Of a DNA stretch of 64,000 nt, positions 25,348-54,545 are shown in pieces. The position numbers and the translations under genes are program-made. The notes beneath the pieces are model-generated. The model was not told the DNA's origin. It made no database searches and saw nothing but the letters and a program-made list of their open reading frames with translations. This DNA comes from Bacillus sp. 123MFChir2 (GTDB lineage Bacteria > Bacillota > Bacilli > Bacillales > Bacillaceae_G). The stretch is taken from assembly GCF_000383235.1 (NCBI RefSeq), contig NZ_KB910935.1, positions 26,262-90,261 on the forward strand. Reading direction: 5' to 3'. Within the stretch, counting starts at the first letter, position 1, and the number at the start of each line of letters is the position of its first letter.

Positions 25348-26265
25348 CTAGTTGCTTATATCAATATTTTTCATGAAATACCATTTTGGATTTTTTTTGT
25401 GCAATTTTATTAAATAATATACACAGAAAACAAGCGCTATTGCTGAGATGATAAGATAAGCCTTCTCCTGATAAGCCCCCATGTTAGCATTAGCATAGAA
25501 TAAATGCTCGCTCCCCATACTGTCGTCATTAAATTTAAACAGCGTCTCAGATGCGTTATAAACCCCATGAATTATCATGCTTTTATATATGGAATTACTA
25601 TCAACAGCAACTAAAAATAATAACAATCCCAGACAAAGAGCATACGTCAAAAATATTGGACTAAATCCCCCAAAGGAATGCATGAGAGAAAATAGAATAG
25701 AAGTGAAAAGAAAAACAAATAAAAGATTGTATTTTTTCACGAGCCATTTCGTTAAAAACCCTCTAAAAACAAGTTCCTCTGCGCCGCCCTGGATAAGATA
25801 AGTAACAAAACATAATAAAACATATGGATAAACATTAAAATTAGAGATCTGTTCTGTAAATCCGATTTGAACATTAAACATAAGAGCGTAAATATAAATA
25901 CCTACAAAATTGATAAACAGACCAATTGCTATCCCACTAAATATATTCGTCATAACCTTATGTGACCGGTCTCTTGTAAATCCTATATTCGAAATCGGGT
26001 TCTTAAATATGTAAACATACACTAACAACAGCATCCATATTCCAATAAAAGTACGAATGACTCCTCCAAAACGATATGCAGAACTGGTTTTTGGAATTAG
26101 ATCTTGGATAGATTGAAGCGACATGCTCACTATTGCTTGCGTTCCATAAAAGAGAGCCATTATACCAATACTGCATAGTAGAAGATATACCAAACTAGGT
26201 ATTTTATCGACAAATTTATTACCATTTTTGCCTACTTTACTTTTAAACATCCATAAATTTTCCAC
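25348..26265 (-). CDS. CPBP-family intramembrane metalloprotease
   Basis: The 305-residue protein has about eight membrane helices and the CPBP (Abi) signatures: the glutamate pair in GGAEELVFRGFL, then HSFGG, and HGVYNASE near the C-terminus. Family members cleave prenylated proteins or peptides, and many in Firmicutes serve bacteriocin maturation, export or self-immunity. It faces away from the six-cysteine peptide gene across a 368-bp intergenic region, so a role in that system is possible but unproven. Confidence 0.8.
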   Translation of the reverse strand: MENLWMFKSKVGKNGNKFVDKIPSLVYLLLCSIGIMALFYGTQAIVSMSLQSIQDLIPKTSSAYRFGGVIRTFIGIWMLLLVYVYIFKNPISNIGFTRDRSHKVMTNIFSGIAIGLFINFVGIYIYALMFNVQIGFTEQISNFNVYPYVLLCFVTYLIQGGAEELVFRGFLTKWLVKKYNLLFVFLFTSILFSLMHSFGGFSPIFLTYALCLGLLLFLVAVDSNSIYKSMIIHGVYNASETLFKFNDDSMGSEHLFYANANMGAYQEKAYLIISAIALVFCVYYLIKLHKKNPKWYFMKNIDISN

Positions 26266-26474: not shown

Positions 26475-26488
26475 TTGACGTAAATCAA
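26475..26488 (+). promoter_or_regulatory. Extra TTGAC-N4-ATCAA element upstream of the SCIFF gene
   Basis: TTGACGTAAATCAA differs by one base from the enterobacterial-type FNR box and sits inside an AACACC...GGTGTT inverted repeat (26461-26496), 45 bp centre-to-centre from the first TGTGA box. It may be a -35 or another regulator site; support is weak. Confidence 0.3.
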
Positions 26489-26518
26489 AGGTGTTGTTAA
26501 AATTATTACTGGAATTAA

Positions 26519-26596
26519 TGTGAAAGTAATCACAAAGTTTAATTATTAATGTGAACCAATTCACAAAGTGTACTTTTTAATGTGAAATCATTCACA
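26519..26596 (+). promoter_or_regulatory. Three FNR/CRP-type operators with exact 31-bp period
   Basis: TGTGA-N6-TCACA occurs at 26519-26534, 26550-26565 and 26581-26596, perfect in all three. The starts are 31 bp apart both times, that is three helical turns, so bound dimers would line up on one DNA face. The last box ends 38 bp before the peptide start codon. TGTGA-N6-TCACA is the Bacillus Fnr consensus; a Crp/Fnr paralogue could also bind. Confidence 0.75.
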
Positions 26597-26633
26597 AATA
26601 TTAACCTTACTTTTTAAAAAGGAGTTATACGTC

Positions 26634-26783
26634 ATGAAAAGAATCGTAACACTTAGCACTCGCAAACTAATGGATACAGTAAAACATGGTGGATGTGGTG
26701 CATGCCAAACATCTTGCCAATCCGCTTGCAAAACGTCTTGCGGAGTTGCAAATCAAAAGTGTGAAAACACAATGAACAGATAG
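26634..26783 (+). CDS. scfA: SCIFF-type six-cysteine peptide precursor (ranthipeptide)
   Basis: The 49-residue product has six cysteines at 21, 24, 28, 32, 36 and 43, within the motif GCGACQTSCQSACKTSC, which is the hallmark of SCIFF (six cysteines in forty-five) peptides. The N-terminal MKRIVTLSTRKLMDTV is the leader recognised by the maturase. The AAAAAGGAG ribosome binding site is 9 bases before the ATG. The partner radical-SAM gene begins 115 bp downstream. In clostridia such peptides receive thioether crosslinks from Cys to downstream alpha carbons and are exported. Confidence 0.92.
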   Translation: MKRIVTLSTRKLMDTVKHGGCGACQTSCQSACKTSCGVANQKCENTMNR

Positions 26784-26798
26784 GAAACAAGACACGTA

Positions 26799-26833
26799 CC
26801 GCCCAGCTGCTTCCCAGATGGGCGGCCATTTTT
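26799..26833 (+). terminator. Terminator/attenuator between scfA and its maturase
   Basis: CCGCCCA and TGGGCGG, extended by CTG/CAG, form a GC-rich stem followed by CCATTTTTAT. It lies between precursor and maturase, the usual place for partial termination that gives more precursor than enzyme. Confidence 0.75.
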
Positions 26834-26897
26834 ATCCCGTATTAACAAGTATAACGGAAGTTTCACTTTATACATAAAAGGAGCTTGATTATCAAGT

Positions 26898-28304
26898 ATG
26901 ATTCATCAATATAAACTAAACGGTTATAACATCGTGCTCGATACCTATAGTGGATCGGTACATGTTGTCGACGATCTCGCCTATGAAATTATTGCGCTTT
27001 ATGAGACTACGCCTTCGGAAGCAATCGTAACAATGGTGCTAGAAAAATACGCACATGATGCAGGCATCTCTGAACAAGACATTCGAGAAACAATCGCAGA
27101 TATTGAAGAGTTGAAAAATGATGGACAACTCTTTACTGAGGATAAATATAAGAATCTATCAATTGATTTAAGAAATCGCCAAACCTATGTAAAGGCCCTT
27201 TGTCTCAATGTTGCACATACATGTAACCTATCATGCGAATACTGCTTTGCCAGCCAAGGAAAATACAACGGAAACAGAGCGATCATGAGCTATGAGGTTG
27301 GCAAAAAAGCTATCGACTATTTATTAGAAAACTCCGGTCATCACCGAAACCTCGACATTGACTTCTTTGGCGGAGAACCGCTCATGGCCTGGAAAGTTGT
27401 TAAACAAATTGTCACTTACGCAAGAAGCAAAGAAAAAGAGTACAAAAAGAAATTCCGCTTCACCTTCACTACAAATGGGATGCTCTTAAATGATGAGGTC
27501 ACTGATTTCTTAAATAAGGAAATGTATAACGTCGTATTAAGTCTTGATGGCAGAAAAGAAGTTCACGATCACCTGCGTAAAACAGTAACTGGAAAGGGAA
27601 GTTACGATTATATCGTTCCGAAGTTCCAGGAATTCATCGAAAAGCGTGGAGATAAAGAATACTATGTGCGTGGAACCTACACCCACAACAACGTCGACTT
27701 CACCAATGACATTTTTCATATCGCAGATCTTGGTTTTGACAAGCTCTCGATGGAACCGGTTATCTGTGACCCTCGGGAACCATATGCGCTCACCGAAAAG
27801 GACCTACAGGAGATTTACAACCAGTACGAAATTCTCGCCAAGGAAATGCTAAAGCGTGAGGAAGAAGGTAATGGCTTCACCTTCTATCACTACATGCTCG
27901 ATCTCTCTGAAGGCCCTTGCATCCAAAAGAGAATTTCAGGATGCGGCTCTGGAACCGAATATCTCGCTGTCACACCATGGGGTGAACTCTTTCCTTGCCA
28001 CCAGTTCGTCGGGGATCAAGAATACAGTATGGGAAACGTCTGGGATGGCATTACAAAACAAGAGACGCAGTGCCAATTTAAAGAAAGCAACTGCTATTCT
28101 AAGCCGGAATGTCAGAACTGCTGGGCGAAGCTTTACTGCAGCGGTGGCTGCCCTGCCAATGCGCTGCACGCAACCGGCTCTATCAATGGAATCTACGATT
28201 TCAGTTGTGACATCTTCCGTAAGAGAGTCGAATGTTCCATGATGGTTAAAGTAACTGAATCCATGAGAGCTATGGAAAAGAACGAACAAGTAGCGGCTGA
28301 ATAA
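26898..28304 (+). CDS. scfB: SCIFF peptide maturase, radical SAM/SPASM protein
   Basis: The 468-residue protein has an N-terminal peptide-recognition (RRE-like) domain (about 1-85), the radical SAM cluster motif C109-NLS-C113-EY-C116, and the SAM-binding GGEPL. A C-terminal SPASM domain with many cysteines (CGSG.., PCHQF, CYSKPECQNC, CSGGCP) binds auxiliary FeS clusters. This is the layout of thioether-forming SCIFF maturases. The gene is visibly richer in G+C than its neighbours, suggesting transfer. The GGAG is 14 bases before the ATG, a weak start. Confidence 0.9.
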   Translation: MIHQYKLNGYNIVLDTYSGSVHVVDDLAYEIIALYETTPSEAIVTMVLEKYAHDAGISEQDIRETIADIEELKNDGQLFTEDKYKNLSIDLRNRQTYVKALCLNVAHTCNLSCEYCFASQGKYNGNRAIMSYEVGKKAIDYLLENSGHHRNLDIDFFGGEPLMAWKVVKQIVTYARSKEKEYKKKFRFTFTTNGMLLNDEVTDFLNKEMYNVVLSLDGRKEVHDHLRKTVTGKGSYDYIVPKFQEFIEKRGDKEYYVRGTYTHNNVDFTNDIFHIADLGFDKLSMEPVICDPREPYALTEKDLQEIYNQYEILAKEMLKREEEGNGFTFYHYMLDLSEGPCIQKRISGCGSGTEYLAVTPWGELFPCHQFVGDQEYSMGNVWDGITKQETQCQFKESNCYSKPECQNCWAKLYCSGGCPANALHATGSINGIYDFSCDIFRKRVECSMMVKVTESMRAMEKNEQVAAE

Positions 28305-37367: not shown

Positions 37368-37417
37368 AAAAACACCCCTTTAGATAATCATATCTAAAGG
37401 GGTAAAACGGTGCAAGG
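37368..37417 (-). mobile_element. Remnant of the older element's right end
   Basis: The hairpin 37375-37402 and the following TAAAACGGTGCAA are identical or nearly so to the intact element's right end (54511-54551), then homology stops where the new element's left terminus TGT begins (37418). It is the interior half of a right end whose outer half may be the CTTATTTCAAATCTATA still next to glmS. Confidence 0.7.
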
Positions 37418-37562
37418 TGTAGGATTAAAATAAAGTTCAATCAAAAGATTGCTACAAACGTTGATTTTATAATAGAAGAAACCTATGTGTTTTGAAAAAA
37501 GATTGATCAAAATGCTTGGGTTTAGTTTTGGATTGCTAAAATTTTTATAAAAAAGATTGATT
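37418..37562. repeat. Left end of the Tn7-like element with three spaced TnsB-type sites
   Basis: Terminal TGTAGGATTAAAATAAAG, then three related sites: 37423-37442 (GATTAAAATAAAGTTCAATC), 37489-37508 (GTTTTGAAAAAAGATTGATC) and 37541-37562 (TTTTTATAAAAAAGATTGAT). The sites are separated by gaps, as in Tn7-L. The innermost overlaps the CD-NTase stop codon. Confidence 0.8.
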
Positions 37563-38943
37563 AAAAAGATCTTTGTAAGGTATTTTCAATTTGAATAGGA
37601 ACATGAATACGGTCTCTCGCTACTACTGTATCCTCGTAAACAATATAGCATTCTACGAAATGATCTCCATTAAAATTAGCAGGTTCTGTACGCTTTTCGA
37701 CTCCCTTTATTATTTGCCCTCGAATACAATTTCTACGAATTGCTTCTTCTCCCCTATTTAAAACTTTCCAATATATATCAAATTTAAATTTCTCATCAGA
37801 ACTTAGTTTTTTTATTGAATCGCGTTCTTGAATGACTTTTTCAAATTCATTTTCAACAATCAAAAATTCAAGTGTTTTTCGACGTTTAATTCTATTTTGA
37901 CTTTTCAAGAGGTCTCTTAAAAATGCAGGTCTGTAACCATCCTGTTTAATGATACAGTCAATTTTAAGAGAATAACGTATATCAACTTTAAATTTATTTT
38001 CAATGAATTCTTCAGTATTAGTTGCTCTAGTATAAGCAGACTCAAAGTAGGCAACAGATTTATTAACCGTTTCTGGAACTGGGAAGGTTTGACCAAATAA
38101 ATATACTAGTGTTTCATATAAGTCTGTACTATCCTCGCCTAAATCTTTAATTTTGTTATAAGCCTTCTTTGCTTTCTTTACGAACTTACACTTTTTATTG
38201 TAGACTTTTTGATTACTGCCTAGAGCATACCAATAAGCTTGTTCTTCATTCAAATCTTTTAAATACTTAAATAAATCCTTTAACAAATCTAAATAATCAG
38301 CAAAAGTTGCAGAATAATATTTAGAATTTTCGTTCAAGAATTTGTAAACTAATGTGTCAATCAATAATCCACCAAATTTAAACCCGATGTTATTTTTCCA
38401 GGCTCTAACTAAATAACAAACATAGCTAAAATTATTATTGGTAGTAATATTGAAAGTATTTGCTTCATCGATCTCTGGAATTGGGTCTGTTTTTTTCCAA
38501 CTACCACCTTCATTTGCATCAGGGTATAAAAAAGAGTCATCCGATTGTTCAAATACAGGGCAGACTTCAATAATCTTTTTTAAACTTTCAAAACTTACAA
38601 CCACAACTTGTCCATCGCCACGTACAATTGTCTTAGGATATCGTTTTTTTATTTCTTTTTTTACATCTTGCAGTAGTTTTGATTGGCCATTCCCATCATG
38701 GTCATCATATTGCTTTTTTTTACTGCTTGGTAAAATAAATAACATATCTACATCACTAAATGATTTAATTGCTGTTTGTCTTCCAAGTGATCCCACAACT
38801 TCACAATGTTCGGTTTCACTTTCACAATCATCGTAATAGGATTTGTTTAATCTCTTTGTAATTTCCTTTACACGTTTAGTCTCTTCTTCAGTATCTTCTA
38901 TCTTTAAAGAATCAATGAATTCTTCCATGTATGTAGCTAGCAT
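37561..38943 (-). CDS. CD-NTase-like nucleotidyltransferase (SMODS), CBASS-type signal synthase
   Basis: The 460-residue protein has the pol-beta nucleotidyltransferase core VVGSLGRQTAIKSFSDVDML, with GS at 51-52 and the metal-binding Asp64 and Asp66. The third acidic position appears to be Glu126 (KKIIEVCPVF) instead of the more common Asp. Such enzymes make cyclic or linear oligonucleotides upon phage infection and activate a partner effector. Its gene lies 12 bases after a SLATT membrane protein, the usual pairing. It is the last cargo gene before the left transposon end. Confidence 0.8.
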   Translation of the reverse strand: MLATYMEEFIDSLKIEDTEEETKRVKEITKRLNKSYYDDCESETEHCEVVGSLGRQTAIKSFSDVDMLFILPSSKKKQYDDHDGNGQSKLLQDVKKEIKKRYPKTIVRGDGQVVVVSFESLKKIIEVCPVFEQSDDSFLYPDANEGGSWKKTDPIPEIDEANTFNITTNNNFSYVCYLVRAWKNNIGFKFGGLLIDTLVYKFLNENSKYYSATFADYLDLLKDLFKYLKDLNEEQAYWYALGSNQKVYNKKCKFVKKAKKAYNKIKDLGEDSTDLYETLVYLFGQTFPVPETVNKSVAYFESAYTRATNTEEFIENKFKVDIRYSLKIDCIIKQDGYRPAFLRDLLKSQNRIKRRKTLEFLIVENEFEKVIQERDSIKKLSSDEKFKFDIYWKVLNRGEEAIRRNCIRGQIIKGVEKRTEPANFNGDHFVECYIVYEDTVVARDRIHVPIQIENTLQRSF

Positions 38944-38955
38944 CCCTTATCTCCT

Positions 38956-39552
38956 TTACTGGTAATTTTCACAATAAAACTTTATTACAAGAATTAAAAT
39001 TGTAATTGTCAAAATGACGGTCCATATTCTCAAAGACATTGGAAATTTATCTTTCCAAGTAAAGCTTTTTTGCTCATCAATCCATTCATGCTGCGCTTGA
39101 TAAAAGAATTTGTAATGGGCATACCAATCGCTAAATGCTATTTGCTTTGTAATGCTTGTAGCATAATAGTCATTCAACAATCTTTTAAGTTTTTCTTGTT
39201 CTTCATCAGTCACATCAGATTCAGTAGAACTGTTTGTCTGATAATACATATCTTTTAACTCATTATGAATTTCCGTTAACCTTATGCCAGCTTCCATATA
39301 ATCTTCTTTTTGAGCACTATATTGATTTATTTGAAGAGCCACCACACTTACTAAAATAATCACAAGAGACACTTCTTTGCTATAGTCAAAAGACGGTGCA
39401 TACAATTGCCATATCCCGATTAATAATGTAATCAAAGCTATTCCACTTGGTACTTTTTCAACAATATCGCAGGTTGCAAAATGCTTTTTAGCACCAAACA
39501 TCACATTGTATCCATGTTCTGCTAACGACTTTAAAAAAATTTCTTTTTTCAT
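38956..39552 (-). CDS. SLATT-domain membrane protein, putative CBASS effector
   Basis: The 198-residue protein has two central helices (SGIALITLLIGIWQLY and SLVIILVSVVALQI), a long polar helical segment, and a third C-terminal helix (WTVILTITILILVIKFY). This is the arrangement of SMODS-associated 2TM (SLATT) proteins, thought to form pores when a nucleotide signal is produced. AAAAGGAGT precedes the ATG. Only about 20 bp separate its start from the hsdS terminator hairpin, leaving no room for an ordinary promoter between them. Confidence 0.78.
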   Translation of the reverse strand: MKKEIFLKSLAEHGYNVMFGAKKHFATCDIVEKVPSGIALITLLIGIWQLYAPSFDYSKEVSLVIILVSVVALQINQYSAQKEDYMEAGIRLTEIHNELKDMYYQTNSSTESDVTDEEQEKLKRLLNDYYATSITKQIAFSDWYAHYKFFYQAQHEWIDEQKSFTWKDKFPMSLRIWTVILTITILILVIKFYCENYQ

Positions 39553-39571
39553 ATTAACTCCTTTTCTATAA

Positions 39572-39611
39572 AAAAAGCATTCTAATATTACGTAATACTA
39601 GAATGCTTTTT
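39572..39611 (-). terminator. Terminator-like hairpin between hsdS and the SLATT gene
   Basis: AAAAAGCATTCTA and TAGAATGCTTTTT form a 13-bp stem around ATATTACGTAATAC, itself nearly palindromic, with TTTTTT on the minus strand. SLATT starts 20 bp downstream. Confidence 0.8.
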
Positions 39612-39616
39612 GATTT

Positions 39617-40864
39617 TTAAATAAACATTTGTTGCATGAATCCTTGTTTTTGTTTTTGTAAAACCTCTATCTTGTGCTGTTCTAATTGAATTTTTCTATC
39701 GTACACCTCGAAAAATTCTCCTATTTTTTTCTGTTCTTTTAGCGATGGAAGATACACTATTTGTTCTTCTAAATCCGATTTACTTAAATTACCTATTGAC
39801 CCATTTCCGCCAGAAACGTGCACATTAATAAACTTTTTATACCATGCTGAGTCCATTAATGCATTGATAAACTCTGGTTCTTCAGCTGTTGCTATTAACA
39901 TGAAACCACCATGAACTGTTTTTTCATCTAAACCTTTAATTAAAGCATGTTTACCAACAAGCCTACTTGAACCATTTGCAGCCGTTATTAAAATATCATT
40001 ATTTTTAACAAAATCAATTTTAATTGCTTCTGGTTTAACGAAAACATCATCTTTCTTCAACAAAAATATATTTTCTAAAATATTTGAGGAACGTAAAACA
40101 CGTACTCCTTTGTCACAAACATCAGAAGGTTTATAAGTTAATCCTCTTTTTATTCTCACAGCTTTACCAAATTTAGTTTCTTCCCATTTTGGATAATCCT
40201 TCCCATCCTCATCCTTAAACCGTAACTCTTGCTTAAAAAGCTTCTGCATATGCCCTTTTTTCTGTTCCTGCAGCAAATCAATTTTTTGTTGTTGGAGTTG
40301 AATTTTTTTATTTAATATATCTACAAATGTGCTGATTTTTTGTTGTTCATGAATCTCAATCGGCATAAAGCTTTTGACTTTTTTTAAGTCTTTCACTGTA
40401 ATATGTGGCTGAGCACTTCCAACTTTTTTTTCAGCTATAAAAATTGGGAGAATTTTTTCTTTAAAGAGATGTAGTGAATATGGAACATCTATTTTATTTT
40501 TAGCTCTTATAATTAACATTGCCGAATTAATTCGCACAAATGGATAAGAATTAATTTCATTAAAAAGAGCTAACTTTCCTAATCTGGAACCTCTGGAAGT
40601 CAATACCAAATCATGTTGTTGAACAATACCTTTTCTAAGTGATTCATGCTTTTCCTTAGAAATCCAATTTGTCTCTTTAAAACTAAAACCTATTTCAGTA
40701 AGATTATTTGCATTCAAAAAAAGGCAATGTCCTTCTTTGAAGAAATCATTCTCACTAGGGTAATTTTTTCCCCTATCACCATCAATAAAATCAAAGTAAT
40801 CGTGTAAAGATACAGGAATCCATTCCCCACTAAATTCTTTAAATCTCAACTTTGGTACATTCAC
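39617..40864 (-). CDS. hsdS: Type I restriction-modification specificity subunit
   Basis: The 415-residue HsdS has two target-recognition domains (about 5-165 and 215-375). They are separated and followed by coiled-coil conserved regions with near-repeats (EQQKISTFVDILNKKIQLQQQKIDLLQEQKKGHMQKLF and EQKKIGEFFEVYDRKIQLEQHKIEVLQKQKQGFMQQMF). It reads the bipartite DNA target for HsdM and HsdR. It starts 3 bases after hsdM. Which sequence it recognises cannot be deduced. Confidence 0.9.
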   Translation of the reverse strand: MNVPKLRFKEFSGEWIPVSLHDYFDFIDGDRGKNYPSENDFFKEGHCLFLNANNLTEIGFSFKETNWISKEKHESLRKGIVQQHDLVLTSRGSRLGKLALFNEINSYPFVRINSAMLIIRAKNKIDVPYSLHLFKEKILPIFIAEKKVGSAQPHITVKDLKKVKSFMPIEIHEQQKISTFVDILNKKIQLQQQKIDLLQEQKKGHMQKLFKQELRFKDEDGKDYPKWEETKFGKAVRIKRGLTYKPSDVCDKGVRVLRSSNILENIFLLKKDDVFVKPEAIKIDFVKNNDILITAANGSSRLVGKHALIKGLDEKTVHGGFMLIATAEEPEFINALMDSAWYKKFINVHVSGGNGSIGNLSKSDLEEQIVYLPSLKEQKKIGEFFEVYDRKIQLEQHKIEVLQKQKQGFMQQMFI

Positions 40865-40867
40865 ACT

Positions 40868-42421
40868 CTACACCCCCAATTCTTTGAAGTATGCAGCTAG
40901 TTCTTCATCGACTTTGGCGATTTCTTCATCGATTTCTTGAAGGCGTTTTGCTACTGCTTCTAAATCAACTGGTTCTTCTTCCTCAAATGTATCTACATAA
41001 CGAGGGATGTTTAAGTTATAGTCATTTTCCTTGATCTCATCTAATGTTGCGGCGTAAGAGTATTTATCAATTGTTTCACGATTTAAATATGTCTCAACGA
41101 TTTTTTCAACATGTTCGTCTGATAAATGGTTTTGATTTTTACCTTTTTCAAACTCATTTGAAGCATCGATAAACATAACGTTATCATCGTGCTTACGGCA
41201 TTTTTTGAACACTAAAATACACGTAGGAATGCTTGTACCGAAGAAAATATTCCCTGGTAGACCGATAACTGCGTCTAAATAGTTTTTTTCTTCGATTAAA
41301 TATTTACGAATGACACCTTCTGCAGCACCACGGAATAAGACACCATGTGGTAATACAACTGCAAATGTACCGTTATCATCTAAATGATGAATAAAGTGTT
41401 GTACGAATGCAAAGTCAGCTTTTGATTTTGGTGCTAATTTTGCGTAATTACTGAAACGTTCATCATCTTGGAATTTATCATCAGCACTCCATTTTGCACT
41501 ATATGGTGGATTGGCAACGATTGCTTCAAAGCGTTTATCCATGTGCTGTGGTTCTTCTAACGTATCTGCATTTTTAATATCAAAGCGTTGGTATGGAATA
41601 TCATGTAGCAACATATTCATACGCGCTAAGTTGTACGTTGTCGATACTTTTTCTTGGCCGTAGTAGTTATAAACTTTTGCTTCTTTACCTACGCGTAGTA
41701 ACAGTGAACCAGATCCACACGTACCATCATAAACATCTTTGATTTCTGTTTTACCAGCTGTAACGATTTTCGCTAAAATGCGTGATACTTGTTGTGGCGT
41801 GTAAAACTCGCCGGCTTTTTTTCCTGCATTCGCAGCAAATTGTGAAATCATATATTCATAGGCATCACCAAGTACATCGATTTCCACATCGTCTTGTAAA
41901 AATGGAATATCTGCAATATTCACAAGTACTTTCGCAATTAGTTCTGAACGTGCTTTTACGGTACGCCCTAATTTTGATGAGTTTAAATCCATATCATCAA
42001 ATAAGTTTTCAAAGTCTTCTTGGCTATCTGCACCCATTGTAGAAGCTTCAATCGCTTTTACACCATTTTGAAGCATTTCAATATCAAAGTTACCATTCGC
42101 ACCTAATTCGATTTCTTTTACGAATGTAGAGAATAAATATTGAGGTGTGATGACATAACCTAATTCATTAATTAAATACTCTTGTAAATCTTCATGATAT
42201 TCTTCATTTCCCCAAGCTTCCGCAAAGTTTAATTCATCTTCCGCAAGTAATGAATTTGCACGTGATTCTACTTTTTCTGATAAATAGCGATAGAAAATCA
42301 ATCCTAAAATATAATCTTTAAACTCATAAGCATCCATTTGACCTCGTAAGTCATTAGCCATTGCCCATAGCTTCTTATGTAACTCAGTTTGCTGCTGGCG
42401 TTGTTTTTCACTTGTTGTCAT
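40868..42421 (-). CDS. hsdM: Type I restriction-modification methyltransferase subunit
   Basis: The 517-residue HsdM has an N-terminal helical domain, the SAM motif DGTCGSGSLLLRV and the catalytic NPPY (VANPPYSAKW) of N6-adenine methyltransferases, followed by a C-terminal coiled coil that meets HsdS. It methylates the HsdS target and forms the core of the restriction complex. It sits between two specificity genes in one operon. Confidence 0.93.
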   Translation of the reverse strand: MTTSEKQRQQQTELHKKLWAMANDLRGQMDAYEFKDYILGLIFYRYLSEKVESRANSLLAEDELNFAEAWGNEEYHEDLQEYLINELGYVITPQYLFSTFVKEIELGANGNFDIEMLQNGVKAIEASTMGADSQEDFENLFDDMDLNSSKLGRTVKARSELIAKVLVNIADIPFLQDDVEIDVLGDAYEYMISQFAANAGKKAGEFYTPQQVSRILAKIVTAGKTEIKDVYDGTCGSGSLLLRVGKEAKVYNYYGQEKVSTTYNLARMNMLLHDIPYQRFDIKNADTLEEPQHMDKRFEAIVANPPYSAKWSADDKFQDDERFSNYAKLAPKSKADFAFVQHFIHHLDDNGTFAVVLPHGVLFRGAAEGVIRKYLIEEKNYLDAVIGLPGNIFFGTSIPTCILVFKKCRKHDDNVMFIDASNEFEKGKNQNHLSDEHVEKIVETYLNRETIDKYSYAATLDEIKENDYNLNIPRYVDTFEEEEPVDLEAVAKRLQEIDEEIAKVDEELAAYFKELGV

Positions 42422-42433
42422 CTATATGACCTC

Positions 42434-43024
42434 CTATTGTTCTGTGATCTTCACCATTTGATGATGAAGAAATAATTGTTCCAATGTATCTTTTTCTTTT
42501 AAAAGCGCTGACTTTTTCTTCTTTAATTGTGCTATTTGTCCAAGCTTTCGTTGCTTTTCAATGGTCGGAAGCACAAGCTCAATTTCTTTTACATTCGATA
42601 ACTTTAATGAAGAAATAATACTTCCTTCTGTAAATAGCGCAATTTGTTTTTGAATCGAAGGATGTTCATTAAATAACCACTCCATAAAATGCACATCTAC
42701 TTCTTCCGAGAAGCTTATTTTCATAAAGTTATTTGTCAACAATAGACCTTGATATTCTGGAGGAAACCAAACAACCTTTTGCGTTAATGTATGCAGTACA
42801 AGGCTTTTCGTATCTGTTAATACTTCTTGTTTAATCTTCTCTTTTTTCACATAAATCGAGCGATCTTTTTCTTGGGAAATCCGATAATCGGTTCCAAGTA
42901 AATGATTGAACTCTTTTAATGTTACTAACTGCAGTTGAACACTGTCTTCATTCAAATTCGACGTTTCAATCCGATTTGTAAAAACGCCTTGTGTGACTTC
43001 TGCACATTCTCTTAACTTCATCAT
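42434..43024 (-). CDS. Half-size HsdS-like protein with a single recognition domain
   Basis: The 196-residue protein resembles half an HsdS: one recognition-like domain (about 1-155) and a C-terminal coiled coil (PTIEKQRKLGQIAQLKKKKSALLKEKDTLEQLFLHHQ), the spacer helix type of specificity subunits. It opens the hsdS'-hsdM-hsdS operon. GGGGAGGT precedes tandem ATGs. It may dimerise to give a second specificity or modulate the full HsdS; this is inference. Confidence 0.78.
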   Translation of the reverse strand: MMKLRECAEVTQGVFTNRIETSNLNEDSVQLQLVTLKEFNHLLGTDYRISQEKDRSIYVKKEKIKQEVLTDTKSLVLHTLTQKVVWFPPEYQGLLLTNNFMKISFSEEVDVHFMEWLFNEHPSIQKQIALFTEGSIISSLKLSNVKEIELVLPTIEKQRKLGQIAQLKKKKSALLKEKDTLEQLFLHHQMVKITEQ

Positions 43025-43054
43025 ATGACCTCCCCTCTGGTCATTATATTAAAT

Positions 43055-43072
43055 GATATTTTAAATAATATC
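43055..43072. promoter_or_regulatory. 18-bp palindrome upstream of the hsdS'-hsdM-hsdS operon
   Basis: GATATT-TTAAAT-AATATC is a perfect palindrome about 30 bp upstream of the first start codon, with a further GATATTTTTTAAAATA nearby (43099-43114). It lies in the promoter region of the modification genes, a candidate operator. Confidence 0.5.
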
Positions 43073-43115
43073 AAGTTAAAATGCATTATTTTTTGATATT
43101 TTTTAAAATAACACA

Positions 43116-43142
43116 AAAAAGAGGGGGATCCCCTCTCTTTTT
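43116..43142. terminator. Terminator between hsdR and the hsdS'MS operon
   Basis: AAAAAAGAGGGG and CCCCTCTTTTTT form a perfect stem. It separates the nuclease gene from the modification genes. Confidence 0.85.
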
Positions 43143-43143
43143 T

Positions 43144-45912
43144 CTATGCTCCATATTTTGCTACTTGCTCATGAATAAAGCTTTTAATCGCTTTAATCGC
43201 CTTATTTTTCTTTAAGAACGAACCTGATAAACGGTCCATAATTGTACTATCTTCAATGATATTGGCATATTCATATGTCGCCACTTGTTCTTTTAAAACA
43301 GATTGCTCTAATCCTACTTCACTTGCAAAAGTATTCATTTCTTCTTCTTGCACTTCTTCTTCATACTTTGAATATTCATCAAGAATGGATACATTTGTAC
43401 CGAGTTGCGGCACAATTTTATCTAAGAAATTATGAATTAGTTCAACTTTTAAACGTAATTTTTCATCAGACGCATGATCTAATTCTTGCTTGATTAATTT
43501 AATTTCTTGATCACGTGTTTTTTCATCATCCATTGTTAAATTCGCGATTAAATTCATAATATAGCTTACATTAATACGATCTGTATGCATTAACTCTAAC
43601 TCAAAATCAATGTCTTGTAAGATAGATTCCTTACGTGGATCTTCTTTTTTCAAGCGATCATGGATTTTGAAGTACTTACTTTTATAGTCCTCGTAAGATT
43701 GCTCTGTAATTTGCAGTTCATCTTCATCAAATTCAAAGTCAGAAAATGATTGCAAACGTTGAAGCATTTTTGTGACGTTTTTGAAAGCAACAATAAATTC
43801 ACGCTGATCTTCTTCTGTTTGAAGTACATCGACTTGTTCAGGCGATGCTGCAACTTTTTTGAGTTCTTCTAATGCTTCTTTAAATTTTGCTAGATAGGCA
43901 TCATAATTTTGCATTAAGACATCATCAACCGAATCTGTTTTAGAGAATAAACGGATTGTATCATCTGTTTGCTCTTTCAAATTACGGTAACAAACGACAT
44001 TTCCATAAGGTTTTGTCGCCTTTTCTACACGGTTTGTACGGCTATAAGCTTGCAATAGATTGTGATACTGCAAGTTTTTATCGACATATAATGTATTGAG
44101 TGGCTTACTATCAAATCCCGTCAAGAACATATTTACGACTAATAAAATATCGATTTGTGCTTGCTTCATTTTTTTCGATACGTCTGAGAAATAGCGGTCC
44201 CATGTATCGGTTGAATAATCAGTGCCAACCATTTGATTATAGTCCTCAATCATACGGTCCAATGCTTCACGTGAATGTTCTTCTGTTCCATCACTTTCTT
44301 CATTCGCACCAAACGAATAAATCCCAGCAATTTTCAAGTTATGATTCTTCGCTTTAAATAAGTCATAGTACTTAATTAACGTTTGAATCGAATCAACCGC
44401 AAAAATACCGCAATATCCTTTACTTTTCGCACGACGATGGTGATTGTCGATAATATGGTCTGCAATCATATTTAAACGTGTAGGATGGCGTAGCACCTCA
44501 TCTGTATCAATACCTTCTACTTTCGTATCATCGAATTCATCTGCTTTCGATTGGAACGTGCTAATGTATTCAACTGAGAAGCCTAATACGTTTCCATCGC
44601 GAATCGCATCTTTAATTAAATAGTGATGTAAACATTTTTCAAATAAATCTGCTGTCGTACGACCATCTTGGCTTTTATTTTCTTCAAATCTTGGCGTACC
44701 TGTAAATCCAAAGTATTGTGCATTTTGGAAATGATGGTCAATATCTTTACGCATATCACCAAACTGGCTACGATGACATTCATCAATAATAAAGACGACA
44801 TGCTCTTGCTTGTAAGGCTCCATTACTTTCTCATAACGTGGATTTTTAACGGCGTTACTCATTTTTTGAATCGTTGTTACGATAAAACGCTTCATTGGAT
44901 TTTTGATTTGTTTAATTAATTCATCCGTTTTATCTGTGCGGTCTACAGAACCTTTTTCAAACTTATTAAATTCCGCAGTCGTTTGGCTATCTAAATCTTG
45001 ACGGTCCACTAAGAAGAATACTTTTTTGATACTTTCTTCATTCGCTAAAATTTGTCCAGATTTAAACGATGTCAATGTTTTACCCGAACCGGTTGTGTGC
45101 CAAATAAAACCGTTATTATTCGTCTCCGTCGCACGTTTGACTAACGCTTCCACCGCATATACTTGATAAGGACGCATGACCATTAAGGCCTTATCGGTAT
45201 CGTTAATAATCATATAGCGGCTTACCATTTTCGCTAAATGACAAGGTTGTAAAAAGGCTTTCGTGAACTCCTGTAAGTTCGTAATAATATTGTTTTCTTC
45301 ATCTGACCAGAAGAATGTAAAACCAAATTGAATATCATAATCAGAGTTTGAGAAGTATTTCGTATCGACGCCATTACTTACAACAAAAATTTGTAAGAAG
45401 TGATAGAGCCCTTGGAACGAATGGCGACGGTAACGCTGAATTTGATTAAATGCTTCTTTAAAATCTAATCCTCTTCGCTTTAACTCAATTTGGACGATTG
45501 GTAACCCATTGATGAAAACGGTGACGTCGTAACGATTTTCGTATTTGCCAAACATTGTCGTTTGCGTTGTCACCTGGAATAAGTTTTTACACCATTGTTT
45601 CGTATTCATAAGTTCTAAATAAAGCTCCGTACCATCTTCACGCTCGATTAGCAATTTATCACGTAAGATTTTTGCAGACTCATAAATACTTTTATCTTCT
45701 GTTGCAACCAGCACACGCTTAAATTCTTTATCTGTTAACGGTTGCCCATTTAATTTCTTCTCATTGAACTTATTTAATTGCGCACGAAAATTGGCTAATA
45801 CAGCTGCATAATCCGATAATTGAACAGCTTCATAACCTTGTTTTTGCAATTGCTCAACTAAATGATTTTCTAGTTGTGCTTCTGACTGATAACCCACTTC
45901 CACATCCCCCAC
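43144..45912 (-). CDS. hsdR: Type I restriction endonuclease and translocase subunit
   Basis: The 922-residue HsdR has an N-terminal nuclease with D129, E143 and K145 (IELKRRG, the PD-ExK triad) and then an SF2 motor with Walker A GSGKT (275-279), DECH (about 375), TGTPRF and the later helicase motifs (VVNMFLTGFDSKPLNTLYVDK, QAYSRTNR). A C-terminal helical domain docks on HsdM/S. It translocates unmethylated DNA and cleaves it. Transcribed separately from the modification operon by an intervening terminator. Confidence 0.93.
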   Translation of the reverse strand: MGDVEVGYQSEAQLENHLVEQLQKQGYEAVQLSDYAAVLANFRAQLNKFNEKKLNGQPLTDKEFKRVLVATEDKSIYESAKILRDKLLIEREDGTELYLELMNTKQWCKNLFQVTTQTTMFGKYENRYDVTVFINGLPIVQIELKRRGLDFKEAFNQIQRYRRHSFQGLYHFLQIFVVSNGVDTKYFSNSDYDIQFGFTFFWSDEENNIITNLQEFTKAFLQPCHLAKMVSRYMIINDTDKALMVMRPYQVYAVEALVKRATETNNNGFIWHTTGSGKTLTSFKSGQILANEESIKKVFFLVDRQDLDSQTTAEFNKFEKGSVDRTDKTDELIKQIKNPMKRFIVTTIQKMSNAVKNPRYEKVMEPYKQEHVVFIIDECHRSQFGDMRKDIDHHFQNAQYFGFTGTPRFEENKSQDGRTTADLFEKCLHHYLIKDAIRDGNVLGFSVEYISTFQSKADEFDDTKVEGIDTDEVLRHPTRLNMIADHIIDNHHRRAKSKGYCGIFAVDSIQTLIKYYDLFKAKNHNLKIAGIYSFGANEESDGTEEHSREALDRMIEDYNQMVGTDYSTDTWDRYFSDVSKKMKQAQIDILLVVNMFLTGFDSKPLNTLYVDKNLQYHNLLQAYSRTNRVEKATKPYGNVVCYRNLKEQTDDTIRLFSKTDSVDDVLMQNYDAYLAKFKEALEELKKVAASPEQVDVLQTEEDQREFIVAFKNVTKMLQRLQSFSDFEFDEDELQITEQSYEDYKSKYFKIHDRLKKEDPRKESILQDIDFELELMHTDRINVSYIMNLIANLTMDDEKTRDQEIKLIKQELDHASDEKLRLKVELIHNFLDKIVPQLGTNVSILDEYSKYEEEVQEEEMNTFASEVGLEQSVLKEQVATYEYANIIEDSTIMDRLSGSFLKKNKAIKAIKSFIHEQVAKYGA

Positions 45913-46037
45913 ATATCCACTTTTATATATTCAAAATAGCTTTACCTATCAATAATCATACCATCGAAAAGAATTTCTGTATTAATATTCCATAAAGTAT
46001 ATTACTAAATTTGTTCTATGGGAAATTATACGATTTG

Positions 46038-47576
46038 TCAAAATAGCTTTTCAAATAACAATTTAGCTTTATGTATAACGCTTTTCTTACTGTGTTTAGC
46101 TTTTTTTACAACAATACCTTCTCTTTCTATCCCCATAATTAATTCCTTAGCCCAAAAACCACTTTTATCCACTAAGCCCGACAACATGTCTTGAATAATC
46201 GAAGGCCATTCCACACTGATAGTTGCGGACAATATCAGCATAGATAAAGAACGACTTTCTCGCTCGATTTCCAAAATTTCATACTGTCTTCCATTAAATA
46301 ATTCTATACTAGCTACTATGTACTTACGCTTTGCAATCCCATCATCTAAATAACTAAATCTCCGCCTTTCGCTTCCCATTGGTAATATACCTGTGATTAC
46401 TTTAATTGCTTTAACTTCTGGATAACCTTCTAAAACCTTAAGTACATTAATAAAATCCAATAATTCGCCTTGTGCCTGTATCTCATATAAAGGTTTATTT
46501 TCTATTCCTCTTGCAAGCTGATTACCGCCAACATCAGCGGTAGATCTTCGTCCATTATCCTCAATAAAATAACGTTTTGTATTTTCATCTTCTTGTGTTC
46601 GTTGCTTATTAGAATTTCTACGAATTTTTGTTACCTTCGGAAGCTTTTCGTATTCATGAATTTGATTATCCATTTCTATTAAATCAAAATCATCAGTTGT
46701 TCCCTCAGCTTCTTCATCTAATTTCATTTCAGATTCACCTATACCATCATTCCGCTTTGAATGAAATGCATATTTTTTAGCTTCGCTTGTCCTTTCATTT
46801 TGAATTATCTCTGGATGAGTAAATGATATCTCTTTATAAGGAATCTTTTTATTTTTAACACTCTTTATTCGAAGGATAGTTCCTCCCGCTACACTTGATT
46901 TAACAGCAGTAATAACAGTAATAGGTTGCTTGAATAACCAATCAAACTGTAGGATTGCTGTATTAATAAAGGCATAAGCGGCATTTTCGAATACTTGTCT
47001 TAGATCTGAATTTGTTAAAAGCCATACTAGCTGGAATAAGTAGGAGTCTTTCGTATACTTACGATGATATTGTGATGAAAAATCTAGATGTAGCTTATTG
47101 GGCTCGTATTGCTCAATAAAATATTGCGGAAAAGAATTCGTTTCAAATAAACGATATAATAAGAATCGATTTGGTGCTAAAATACTACGCACAACTTCAA
47201 TAAGGGGCAAGATATATTTTTTATTTTGGTATGAAACAGTGAAACTACGCGAAACATCTTTATCATTTGTACCAAAGATGCTCCAATCCCTTTCTGAATA
47301 GGTCACAGTGTTTGGATAAATTTTAATTTCAACTTCTTCTATACCTGACGGAGGAATACTTTGACTAATGTTGCCGTTCATGTAGTAATGCTGAATAGCT
47401 AAAGCTGGCAAAGTTCCCCAATCAACTAATAATTTTTCAGTCCTATCATTTGCTCTAAAATACGCATAAATCATCGTTTTTTTATCTTGCAAAAAAGGAG
47501 AGCTAATCCAAGTTAATTGTGCTTGCTCTCCTTCATCAAATGGCCAATTATTCAGTTTAACCTGTTGTTTGCTCAT
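46038..47576 (-). CDS. tnsE: Tn7-like transposition protein TnsE
   Basis: The 512-residue protein lies last in the tns operon, overlapping tnsD by 20 bases, and has the TnsE pattern (N-terminal FDEGEQAQLTWISSPFLQDKK; C-terminal GGTILRIK, ELLDFINVLKVLEGYPEV, GRQYEILEIERESRSLSML). In Tn7, TnsE directs transposition to replicating DNA, especially conjugal plasmids, via the sliding clamp. Its presence gives this element both a chromosomal and a plasmid route. Many Tn7-like elements lack it. Confidence 0.85.
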   Translation of the reverse strand: MSKQQVKLNNWPFDEGEQAQLTWISSPFLQDKKTMIYAYFRANDRTEKLLVDWGTLPALAIQHYYMNGNISQSIPPSGIEEVEIKIYPNTVTYSERDWSIFGTNDKDVSRSFTVSYQNKKYILPLIEVVRSILAPNRFLLYRLFETNSFPQYFIEQYEPNKLHLDFSSQYHRKYTKDSYLFQLVWLLTNSDLRQVFENAAYAFINTAILQFDWLFKQPITVITAVKSSVAGGTILRIKSVKNKKIPYKEISFTHPEIIQNERTSEAKKYAFHSKRNDGIGESEMKLDEEAEGTTDDFDLIEMDNQIHEYEKLPKVTKIRRNSNKQRTQEDENTKRYFIEDNGRRSTADVGGNQLARGIENKPLYEIQAQGELLDFINVLKVLEGYPEVKAIKVITGILPMGSERRRFSYLDDGIAKRKYIVASIELFNGRQYEILEIERESRSLSMLILSATISVEWPSIIQDMLSGLVDKSGFWAKELIMGIEREGIVVKKAKHSKKSVIHKAKLLFEKLF

Positions 47577-49410
47577 CGTTACTCACATCCTGTTTCCTTT
47601 TCAAATATTCTTCTAGCTTTGGTTTTATTTCATGAAAATGATGCGTTTTCACTGCTGCTATACGCTGTACTTGCCATAGTATAACTGGTTCATCCATCGT
47701 TATCATTTGGTCAATCACTTTACAACAACGACGAATTTGAAATTGCTCGACTGACTCAATTATTTCTTCTAATAATTCCTTCGTTTGCAATAGTTTATCT
47801 AAATGACGCTCTAAGTTCGCTAATATTCCTAATCGTTTACCTAATACCGAAATCGTTATTCGAATAGGCCTTTCTTCCGCCAGTAACTCTTTATAGAGCA
47901 CTTTTATTTTTACAACGTATTCTCTATCTCTCTTATCCCAGTCTATCTTTTTAGTCGGCTCTAGCTTCTTTTGTTTTATAGGCAAATTCTCCATCAACCA
48001 TTCTTTATCATGTCGATATAAGAACATATATTGCTTTTTAAAAAGCTCTCGCAAATCTGTACGAGACAAATTAGGAAATTTCCGTATACCTTCTATCATC
48101 TCATTTCGATACTGTTCCAGTAACACTTTATCCTCTATTTTCACTTGATTATTTGTTATCTCATGTTCCTCTAAATATCTTTTAACTGTCTTGGAATCGA
48201 CTCCTAATTCCCTCGCAATTGCTCTTGTACTAAGGTTCTTATTAGATAATTGTTTAAGCTTTGACTTCCACACTTCACCAAATATTTTCACTCTTCCTAT
48301 ACGAAATCGGTCTTCTAAAAATGTATCAGGACCTTTTCTTGCGTAGACAAAACCACATGAACAGTTGAATGTACCAATTAGAGCTGTTGATTTAAAATCT
48401 CTTGTAACCTCAACACTAGGAATGACCATGTCTCTATAGTGTGTTGCCGCTTTATTCAAACAAGGCCAAGGCCCCGCACCAAACAGAGCTACATGAGCCT
48501 TTTGATTCACCAAGTCATCTATATCCTGTTCTAAGAAATAAAGCATTAACAAATGCCTAAAAGGATGTACATGACGATTTGTATTACGAGTAATCATCTT
48601 TAACCAGTTATACTCATCCGCTATATTTAGAGTACTCTCATACTTTTCTAAAAAGCCTTTAGGGAACTTACTTTTAAACGCTTGATACAATTCTTTTTGG
48701 CGTACACGATTCGAAACTGTAATCAGATTTAATTCACACAATAACGCACGGTATTTCAACTTAATATCTTCTCGTGAAAATTTTTGCAACGGTAATTGCA
48801 ATAATTTATATGCTTGTTTTGATAAGTAAATTGAAATTTTTGCAAAAGGGTCACTTTTATAAATAGAAGATAGATTCATATTCTTTAACTCAAAGCGAAT
48901 GTATTCAATACAGCTAGCTGTATCTACTGGGTATTTTCTCAATTGCACCTCATGGTGGGGACAGTAATCAATGCCTTGTAATTGATGCTTTCGATGTATA
49001 TATGGTTCTCCAAATTGCTCTACATCACTTTTCGTACATTCTGCACAATAATAGAGGCCAGCTTTTCTACAAATACTTCCTGCAATCATACCAAGTCTTG
49101 TGTAAAGTGCTTGTCCATTACCAGCAACGTCTTGTAAAATTTCTTGCTGACGCTGTTTTGTTAAAAATATTGCATAATAAGGATAAATTGTATGATTAGC
49201 TAGTATAGTCTTAACAGAATAGTTAGAGCCTAGTTGCTCAGCTAATATAGCAAAATGACTACCAATCTCCACACTCGGAATCACAGAACGACTTTGAAAC
49301 ACTTCTTCTAATGTGTCTTTACAATCAAGATTTCCACTATAAAAGTGATAACGTGCAATCGCTGAATACATCAATTCATCTGGATATGGATTAGTAAAGA
49401 AGGGGAGCAT
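47557..49410 (-). CDS. tnsD: TniQ-family target selector TnsD
   Basis: The 617-residue protein has the TniQ N-terminal domain with a CCCH zinc site at C122, C125, C150 and H153. The spacing matches that recalled for Tn7 TnsD (C124, C127, C152, H155). The long C-terminal region contains helix-turn-helix-like segments (RAIARELGVDSKTVKRYLEEH at about 390-410). It recognises the 3' end of glmS and recruits TnsC; the transposon's place 25 bp beyond glmS is the expected result. Confidence 0.88.
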   Translation of the reverse strand: MLPFFTNPYPDELMYSAIARYHFYSGNLDCKDTLEEVFQSRSVIPSVEIGSHFAILAEQLGSNYSVKTILANHTIYPYYAIFLTKQRQQEILQDVAGNGQALYTRLGMIAGSICRKAGLYYCAECTKSDVEQFGEPYIHRKHQLQGIDYCPHHEVQLRKYPVDTASCIEYIRFELKNMNLSSIYKSDPFAKISIYLSKQAYKLLQLPLQKFSREDIKLKYRALLCELNLITVSNRVRQKELYQAFKSKFPKGFLEKYESTLNIADEYNWLKMITRNTNRHVHPFRHLLMLYFLEQDIDDLVNQKAHVALFGAGPWPCLNKAATHYRDMVIPSVEVTRDFKSTALIGTFNCSCGFVYARKGPDTFLEDRFRIGRVKIFGEVWKSKLKQLSNKNLSTRAIARELGVDSKTVKRYLEEHEITNNQVKIEDKVLLEQYRNEMIEGIRKFPNLSRTDLRELFKKQYMFLYRHDKEWLMENLPIKQKKLEPTKKIDWDKRDREYVVKIKVLYKELLAEERPIRITISVLGKRLGILANLERHLDKLLQTKELLEEIIESVEQFQIRRCCKVIDQMITMDEPVILWQVQRIAAVKTHHFHEIKPKLEEYLKRKQDVSNDEQTTG

Positions 49411-49437
49411 TTATATGACCTCCTAAATACCAATATT

Positions 49438-49830
49438 TTATTCCTTGTTTTTCATCGCTAAGTTACTCAAATATCTAACTGTAGTCATAAATCCTAAACA
49501 TAGTAAGGTTGCTATAATTTTCCCCGTAAAAGTAGGCCATACAGTAATAGAGTAAAATAATATTGTAAAAGCCAATATAGTAGGAGCATCTGCATAAATT
49601 GTTGCTAAAATATCTTTTTTCAAAACTGCCTTAGCTGTGCTTTTGATAATACTTCCCTCAAAACTAAACCAAAGTATTGATAATATTGCATACGCATTTC
49701 CAATCCATTCAACTTTTGTTATAAAAAATGTAACCCCTGTGATTACGATTAAAGTTAAAATGCCTGAAATAAACTTAAAGTTTTTTATATCTATTTCTTC
49801 CTCTGTTTTAACTGCCTTTTTCTGCATCAT
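49438..49830 (-). CDS. Four-helix membrane protein between tnsC and tnsD
   Basis: The protein of about 130 residues has a short charged N-terminus and four hydrophobic helices (SGILTLIVITGVTFFI, YAILSILWFSFEGSII, PTILAFTILFYSITVW, IIATLLCLGFMTTV). Its start at MMQKKAV uses GGAGG 5 bases upstream; the longer TTG start is less likely. It lies in the tns operon, 20 bp after tnsC and 27 bp before tnsD, where canonical Tn7 has nothing. Family not recognised; a toxin, immunity or regulatory role is speculative. Confidence 0.7.
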   Translation of the reverse strand: MMQKKAVKTEEEIDIKNFKFISGILTLIVITGVTFFITKVEWIGNAYAILSILWFSFEGSIIKSTAKAVLKKDILATIYADAPTILAFTILFYSITVWPTFTGKIIATLLCLGFMTTVRYLSNLAMKNKE

Positions 49831-49850
49831 TATTACCTCCAATTGAAAGT

Positions 49851-53667: not shown

Positions 53668-54503
53668 CCATGCTTCACCTTCTTCAGCTTACTTTCATCA
53701 ATCAACTTAATATCAATAGGCTCCTCTAAATTTAGTGGTTTAAGCATATCTATCACTATAATTTTTCGAGCAAGCAAATGATAAAAAAGGGTCACACCAC
53801 TGCCAAAAGGTAAATGTGTATCTGTATCAAATTCACTTGTAATCATACGGACACTACGTGAATCATTTAGTAATCTTTGCATCAAGGACAAAGATAAATC
53901 TTCAATAAGCTGCGCACTCATTTCTTGGAAGACATCATAATCTCGAATGTCATAGTAATCATGGATATAGCTAATATTTCTCGCCATTGTTTTTGGAATT
54001 TCTTCTTCCGTTACAATACCCCAATCAATATCTCTACGTAGCCAATACTCCCGCTCAATTTCGAACTTCTCAAGTACTCGTTCCTTTAGTAATTCATCTT
54101 TCATTTTGATAGTACGAGCAACTTCAATGATGCCTTGACCTTTATCAAGAGATAATAAAAAATCCGTTGTCATCACAATTGGTTCACCAGTTTTAGGATC
54201 AGTAGAATGCTCAATACCTAACTCATCTGCAATGACAATTGTTTCTTCCAACGGTAGTAAAGGAAATTGCTCCCGAATATCAATAATAAAATCGGAATGT
54301 TCAGTTAAATAAAAATAGTTTCGTTCTAAATCCGATAAAAATTCATGTTGCCTACTCGTTTTTATTCCTTTCAAACGAGTTGAACGACCTAGAGAGGAGA
54401 CATCCTGAATTTTTAGCCACGGTTTATAATCTGCGCCTATCCCTGAACCTCGACCTTGTTTAATCCACTTTTCAATTTCAGATGTTCTTTTTCTTTTGGA
54501 CAT
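53664..54503 (-). CDS. tnsA: Tn7-like endonuclease TnsA
   Basis: The 279-residue protein has the restriction-like nuclease residues E60 (DLERNYFYLTEHSD), D114 (IVMTTDFLL) and K133 (ARTIKMKDEL), aligning with E63, D114 and K132 of Tn7 TnsA. A C-terminal domain for TnsC contact follows (LEKFEIEREYWLRRDIDWGIVTEEEIP). It cuts the 5' strands at the transposon ends, making cut-and-paste movement possible. Its start codon is 7 bases after a strong hairpin whose 3' arm holds the AAAGGGG ribosome binding site. Confidence 0.93.
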   Translation of the reverse strand: MSKRKRTSEIEKWIKQGRGSGIGADYKPWLKIQDVSSLGRSTRLKGIKTSRQHEFLSDLERNYFYLTEHSDFIIDIREQFPLLPLEETIVIADELGIEHSTDPKTGEPIVMTTDFLLSLDKGQGIIEVARTIKMKDELLKERVLEKFEIEREYWLRRDIDWGIVTEEEIPKTMARNISYIHDYYDIRDYDVFQEMSAQLIEDLSLSLMQRLLNDSRSVRMITSEFDTDTHLPFGSGVTLFYHLLARKIIVIDMLKPLNLEEPIDIKLIDESKLKKVKHG

Positions 54504-54538: not shown

Positions 54539-54545
54539 TAAAACG

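Follow-up and report, generated by a model that had tools for sequence, protein, structure and literature searches.

SCIFF ranthipeptide systems are known from Clostridia, with Tte1186a/Tte1186 and CteA/CteB (thermocellin) as described examples, and a signalling role has been proposed for the clostridial peptides. The founding SCIFF paper is reportedly that of Haft and Basu in 2011. Excerpted text of PMC8326336 lists a quorum-sensing role for SCIFF-type peptides and gives Cys32-Thr37 and Cys32-Thr34 as differing assignments of their crosslink. Freyrasin (PapA/PapB) of Paenibacillus polymyxa is a ranthipeptide of a Bacilli host with a radical SAM/SPASM maturase, and PapB is reported to need Cys-X3-Asp (PMC8172795, in part). 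The Rex site is given as TTGTGAAW4TTCACAA, located at or beside promoters, in a portion of PMC2883068, and Rex regulons of Bacillus and Staphylococcus have operators near TTGTGAA-N4-TTCACAA in such positions (excerpts of PMC2883068 and PMC4162614).

The scfAB genes studied here lie in a window (the whole 64,000-nucleotide stretch of Bacillus sp. 123MFChir2 that was analysed) and form a system of a known kind, since NCBI models already name such proteins. They share with clostridial SCIFF systems the gene order, a precursor and a maturase that pass both NCBIfam equivalog cut-offs, the core CQTSCQSACKTSC and a terminator-like hairpin no more than 100 nt downstream of scfA (the hairpin also being present in 47 of 75 Clostridia loci). 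They differ in their host, in Gly at position 37 where CteA-like peptides have Thr, and in the Rex-like operator that closely follows the promoter (matched with up to two mismatches at 1 of 70 Clostridia loci, 0.2 expected). The window peptide has no Cys-X3-Asp, and ScfB reaches 284 of 340 bits for PapB, below the PapB cut-off. The window operators resemble those of Rex regulons in sequence and placement, whereas their target is a RiPP operon with three operators at 31-bp steps. The variant on known SCIFF is the Rex-like operator of the Bacilli clade and its triplication here. Among the matches listed in the open-access literature, nothing resembled a RiPP operon under three 31-bp-spaced Rex-like operators, and none concerned SCIFF in Neobacillus-type Bacilli or a Rex- or Fnr-controlled ranthipeptide; excerpted text of a Bacillus thuringiensis paper mentions ranthipeptide once (PMC11882490). 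We read scfAB as a SCIFF operon of probable clostridial origin that has been kept in a clade of Bacilli under a redox repressor, with Rex the favoured candidate, and put the probability of this reading at about 0.68.

Genes and signals of the scfAB locus

The features of the locus are as follows, the ribosome-binding site and scfB motifs having been read from sequence.

25348 to 26265, divergent from scfAB: CPBP-type gene (PF02517)
26475 to 26503, forward strand: predicted sigma-A promoter of scfAB, with TTGACG at 26475-26480, a 17-bp spacer and extended -10 TAAAAT at 26498-26503; start predicted near 26510; Neobacillus, Mesobacillus and some Paenibacillus relatives have promoters like it
26519 to 26534, forward strand: operator 1, TGTGAAAGTAATCACA, centre +16.5, same position as the single operator of relatives
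26550 to 26565, forward strand: operator 2, TGTGAACCAATTCACA, centre +47.5, differing from the 18-bp Rex consensus at one position
26581 to 26596, forward strand: operator 3, TGTGAAATCATTCACA, centre +78.5
26620 to 26624, forward strand: ribosome-binding site of scfA, AGGAG
26634 to 26783, forward strand: scfA, SCIFF precursor peptide (TIGR03973), with six Cys, Thr34 and Gly at 37
26799 to 26833, forward strand: terminator-like hairpin CCGCCCA...TGGGCGG with a T-run, between scfA and scfB
26898 to 28304, forward strand: scfB, radical SAM/SPASM SCIFF maturase (TIGR03974)
Within 26898 to 28304, forward strand: scfB motifs CNLSCEYC and SPASM-type CQNCWAKLYCSGGC

The original prediction had named a SCIFF precursor and a radical SAM/SPASM maturase, with a CPBP gene diverging from them, and all three are present. 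ScfA (49 aa) scores 78.6 bits against the curated model TIGR03973 (cut-off 50) and ScfB (468 aa) 748 bits against TIGR03974 (cut-off 425); for the exception model not_ScfB, ScfB reaches 541 of 855 bits, below that cut-off. The two genes are adjacent, as in SCIFF systems, with a gap of 114 bp, and the peptide has the SCIFF pattern of six Cys in about 45 residues plus Thr34. Assignment of the locus as a SCIFF ranthipeptide system is therefore supported by both the precursor and the maturase equivalogs.

Distribution and origin of scfAB

A scan of species genomes for ScfB yielded 545 stretches that encode a relative, and the best 80 of these 545 were retained as loci. Among the best 80 were Mesobacillus zeae (91% identity to the window ScfB) and Neobacillus (90%), together with Bacillus sp. 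EB600, Paenibacillus, Anaerobacillus, Robertmurraya, Sporolactobacillus and Trichococcus; identity to the window was 75-91% within the Bacilli-type group and at most 70% for the Clostridia in this set. Similarity to the window governed the choice of loci L030-L080, and score that of L219-L248; the loci that enter the box, hairpin and peptide counts are not independent of each other (e.g. L026/L190). One locus (L015) was counted with the Bacilli on account of its Trichococcus-type promoter and ScfB. Its contig is labelled Sedimentibacter sp. SX930, possibly wrongly.

SCIFF had been put forward as a hallmark of Clostridia, and this holds as a statement of frequency: 242 of 291 genomes sampled from Clostridia, the class that includes Ruminococcus bromii, had the maturase above cut-off, against 18 of 398 sampled Bacilli. 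It does not hold as a boundary, with several Bacilli genera carrying the maturase. In the GTDB family of Neobacillus rhizosphaerae, which belongs to the same class as these sampled Bacilli, 16 of 193 genomes had the maturase above cut-off and 177 did not. In this family, 191 genomes had a hit to the window glmM, the best match being 76% identical. Bacilli with a putatively redox-controlled copy, alongside same-family relatives without one (177 of 193 below cut-off), would allow an on/off test of the system. The 18 Bacilli hits comprise 8 in the clade of the window and 10 distant ones (469-635 bits); a SCIFF-like peptide was found near two of the latter (L198 and L199), while the remaining eight had none in flanking sequence of roughly 1.5 kb. 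The peptides of L198 and L199 are without Cys36 (CKTSV or CKTSM).

We placed ScfB in a tree of 106 rows, built by a quick method with a midpoint root for drawing only. ScfB extraction by motif gave no sequence for 6 of 135 loci, and 24 of the 84 other rows were thinned out. As the phylogeny suggested with the original prediction, the tree sets ScfB of Bacilli against clostridial rows: 46 Bacillales, Sporolactobacillus and Trichococcus-type rows, including the window, formed one clade nested among the latter (SH-aLRT 100, stem 0.45). The window ScfB grouped with Mesobacillus and Neobacillus (support 94, 90-91% identity), and the Sporolactobacillus, Trichococcus, Paenibacillus and Robertmurraya rows clustered by genus. 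Because five of the distant Bacilli rows (L197, L200, L202, L203 and L205) fell outside the clade on long branches, a single origin holds for the 46-row clade only; the other five of the 10 distant hits are absent from the tree.

Directly upstream of scfA, 5 of 5 Trichococcus-type and 10 of 18 Clostridia loci have an Orn/Lys/Arg decarboxylase-family gene (PF01276). Given the tree clade and this shared upstream gene, we read scfAB as a probable transfer from Clostridia into the Bacilli clade, followed by inheritance, loss and perhaps transfer within Bacilli, the last being possible. Decarboxylase-type genes were also hit downstream of scfB in L057 and L067 (31%) and about 1.9 kb upstream in L031 and L073; in L037, scfA was not found beside the decarboxylase-family hit. 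In the five Trichococcus-type loci (L010, L015, L016, L018 and L019), the decarboxylase gene is a possible functional partner.

Recent horizontal gain of scfAB by this strain would offer another account of its presence. The G+C content of scfB is indeed above its surroundings, as had been noted earlier (42.7% against 35.4% for the window, with a GC3 of 46%); however, 13 of the 14 Bacilli relatives that were checked likewise have an scfB with more G+C than the DNA around it, so composition does not tie the acquisition to this strain, and we ruled it out as proof of recent gain. Tn7-like end-type repeats lie 3 and 9 kb from scfAB, but scfAB is outside the repeats seen, and we likewise rejected it as mobile-element cargo. 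The patchy distribution of the maturase would also fit recent gain, as would the flanking genes of the window, none of which was shared in place with relatives' scfAB loci; against this, the window ScfB groups with those of Mesobacillus and Neobacillus, and the window promoter and operator 1 sit where they do in those genera. Recent gain thus appears quite improbable. Of the earlier suggestion of acquisition, the part that stands is an old clostridial import into the Bacilli clade, and the evidence supports scfAB as such an import, patchily kept and with no sign of recent gain.

Operator array and candidate regulators

Three perfect TGTGA-N6-TCACA boxes with an exact 31-bp spacing had been predicted, and exact matches start at 26519, 26550 and 26581 (spacings of 31 and 31 bp), all within 78 bp. 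With one mismatch allowed, the whole window contains one further match, and shuffled windows contain about 2 matches on average, 13 of 100 shuffles reaching 4. Because one-mismatch matches are common in shuffles, what carries weight is that three perfect copies fall within 78 bp and that the boxes are conserved among relatives. The 31-bp units 2 and 3 are identical at 15 of 21 positions outside the box, against 9 between unit 1 and either of them, so the array was probably extended by duplication downstream of an older operator 1.

The window promoter matches 10 of 12 consensus bases and has an extended -10. A shared form (TTGACg-N17-TAAAAT with TG before the -10) was present in Neobacillus and Mesobacillus, with variants in some Paenibacillus and in Trichococcus. 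Of the 17 relatives with a box that were analysed, 14 have its centre between +15.5 and +18.5, counted from transcription starts that are all predicted, and two more (L008 and L088) have it at +16. Locus L029 is off this pattern, its best-scoring promoter placing the box at -38, and at four Trichococcus-type loci the best Rex 18-mer match overlaps the -10 (-6).

Upstream of scfA, a Rex 18-mer with up to two mismatches was found at 17 of 46 Bacilli loci (0.1 expected) and at the single locus among 70 Clostridia given above; with up to three mismatches, the counts were 21 of 46 (2.2 expected) and 5 of 70 (2.3 expected), 10 of 80 Clostridia loci with no readable scfA having been dropped. The Rex-like operator looks like an addition in the Bacilli clade, lost or absent at the 25 of 46 Bacilli loci without a match within three mismatches. 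Against the Rex consensus TTGTGAA-N4-TTCACAA (14 fixed bases), operators 2 and 3 have one mismatch each and operator 1 has two, none being perfect. Their centres at +16.5, +47.5 and +78.5 from the predicted start put them beside the promoter, where repressors of Rex regulons are positioned.

We favour repression by Rex, which would respond to NADH/NAD+, over activation by Fnr, although sequences alone do not separate the two and the box is a weak guide for telling Rex sites from Fnr sites. All 17 scfA boxes have A at base 6 and 16 have A immediately after the box, both as in the Rex consensus; immediately before the box, 14 have A in place of the consensus T, and 5 have A at base 11. The pattern TGTGAAN4TTCACA occurs at 6-13 sites per genome in five relatives' genomes (reversed control 0-1), some of which fall within long reading frames (those of L127 and L139 and one of L154). 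Genes beside these sites make up a redox set, but a mixed one: dcu (anaerobic C4-dicarboxylate transporter), nirB and adhP were above cut-off, adhE-, nrfH- and formate-transporter-like genes just under it, and NADH dehydrogenase-, old-yellow-enzyme- and fnr-like genes were named by reading or weak hits, with one site of G022 left out of this reading. Such AA..TT boxes thus occur upstream of nirB and of an fnr-like gene as well.

In B. subtilis, ndh is a Rex target, and in two genomes the ndh-like gene (named from reading) has its box at +17.5, as for scfA. This likeness rests on two genomes because the promoter predictor scatters at other boxed genes, the M. zeae ndh-like gene having its box at -123.5 or +5.5 depending on the predicted promoter and adhE-like genes at positions from about -129 to +2.5. 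At one adhE-like gene (L141, in G157), three Rex-like boxes 104 and 103 bp apart form an apparent tandem repeat. The Rex-type DNA-binding domain PF06971 was above cut-off in 20 of 20 SCIFF relatives' genomes tried. Crp/Fnr-family hits were found in 22 of 22 SCIFF genomes searched, and the presence of Fnr is therefore uninformative as a discriminator between Fnr and Rex.

Fnr or another Crp-family protein could instead act as a repressor on the boxes, or Rex and Fnr could share them, since the position suits any repressor and, in excerpted text of PMC4162614, the Rex motif overlaps ResD and Fnr motifs at B. cereus ldhA. The base before the box, mostly A rather than T, would also agree with this; yet the invariant A at base 6 is demanded by the Rex 18-mer and not by TGTGA-N6-TCACA. 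Anaerobic repression would moreover switch the maturase off when it is able to work, which is an argument rather than data. We consider a repressor of this type, or shared use of the boxes, unlikely.

The original prediction had taken the boxes for FNR-type sites under strong oxygen-dependent control, and activation of scfAB by Fnr when oxygen is absent is the least probable account. TGTGA-N6-TCACA also fits the Crp/Fnr consensus, every SCIFF genome searched had a Crp/Fnr-family hit, a Mesobacillus zeae protein ends in CENCPTEFC (presumably like the cysteine motif of Bacillus Fnr) and the best-scoring promoter of L029 would put its box at -38; but the window boxes, the first centred at +16.5, are all downstream of the -10, a position in which Fnr would not be expected to act as an activator, and the 14 relatives agree with this placement. 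Class II Fnr sites lie near -41.5, as does a second nirB box in three relatives' genomes (by a promoter pattern written after the sequences were inspected), and a promoter with 10 of 12 consensus bases and an extended -10 seems not to need an activator. Fnr-type activator sites are thus poorly supported and activation by Fnr highly unlikely. With Rex as the favoured repressor, scfAB may come under redox or oxygen control, and its peptide is probably produced once oxygen becomes scarce.

Peptide, hairpin and neighbouring genes

Natural variation of the peptide bears on the disputed SCIFF crosslink. In CteA numbering, Thr34 is kept in all 46 Bacilli and all 75 readable Clostridia peptides (121 of 121; 5 of 80 Clostridia loci had no readable scfA), whereas Gly occupies position 37 in every one of the 46 Bacilli peptides and in 66 from Clostridia, and Thr in only 9, all from Clostridia. 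The search pattern left positions 34 and 37 free and fixed most Cys positions. Because Thr34 is kept throughout and Thr37 in only 9, these rows, which are not independent, favour a Cys32-Thr34 bond over Cys32-Thr37. Position 21 is His instead of Cys in eight Sporolactobacillus-type peptides (seven named loci plus one more of that type), leaving five Cys; these loci are L017, L023-L028 and L190.

Of the 46 Bacilli loci, 41 have a G+C-rich hairpin followed by a T-run within 100 nt 3' of scfA, where shuffles gave a mean of 1.0, as do the 47 of 75 Clostridia loci mentioned above, where they gave a mean of 5.0; the stems differ between groups of loci. RNAalifold found no structure in the 41-row hairpin alignment, in which MAFFT misplaced a few rows and from which three rows were omitted on purpose and two for want of the motif, so covariation was given no weight; in Rfam, the scfA-scfB region reached no family at the gathering threshold. 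The hairpin probably holds the precursor above the level of the enzyme.

A regulatory scheme can be proposed from these elements. In relatives from Paenibacillus to Neobacillus, a predicted sigma-A promoter is followed by a Rex-like palindrome at about +16, to which the window adds two more copies at 31-bp steps; as 31 bp is about three helical turns, all three operators should face the same side of the DNA. As long as respiration holds NADH down, NAD+-bound Rex on the operators would block transcription at initiation or in early elongation. A lack of oxygen or other acceptors would let NADH rise, Rex would leave and scfAB would be transcribed, so that the oxygen-sensitive maturase would appear when it is able to work. 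The extra operators would be expected to make repression tighter or steeper. The hairpin after scfA would end most transcripts and leave the precursor in excess of the enzyme, and ScfB would then make a Cys32-Thr34 thioether. Following transfer from Clostridia into facultatively anaerobic Bacilli, SCIFF, a peptide of obligate anaerobes, may in this way have been rewired into a Rex output, a redox-gated peptide and perhaps a fermentation-switch signal whose steepness is set by the three-operator array, a proposal that we hold tentatively and at somewhat less than even odds.

We also examined the neighbouring genes. Flanking sequence of up to 4 kb from 30 other Bacilli and 18 Clostridia loci gave no CPBP hit at E 1e-5, and with none in these 48 loci we rejected the CPBP protease as a leader peptidase of the SCIFF system. 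PAP2-type neighbours were hit at three loci (32-35% identity). In the two Robertmurraya loci the gene lies downstream of scfB, as in the window, yet on the opposite strand, and in L004 it lies upstream; we took these hits as probably due to chance.

A Tn7-like transposon lies beside glmS at 37368-54650 of the window, with TnsA, TnsC/TniB, TnsD/TniQ and TnsE domains (Pfam) and a Mu-type transposase in the place of TnsB. It carries as cargo hsdR/hsdM/hsdS-like genes (named from reading) and an SMODS/AGS_C nucleotidyltransferase (37561-38943). End-type repeats are found near 37.37-37.41 kb and 54.50 kb, with partial ones near 31.2 kb, and this arrangement suggests nested or successive insertions.
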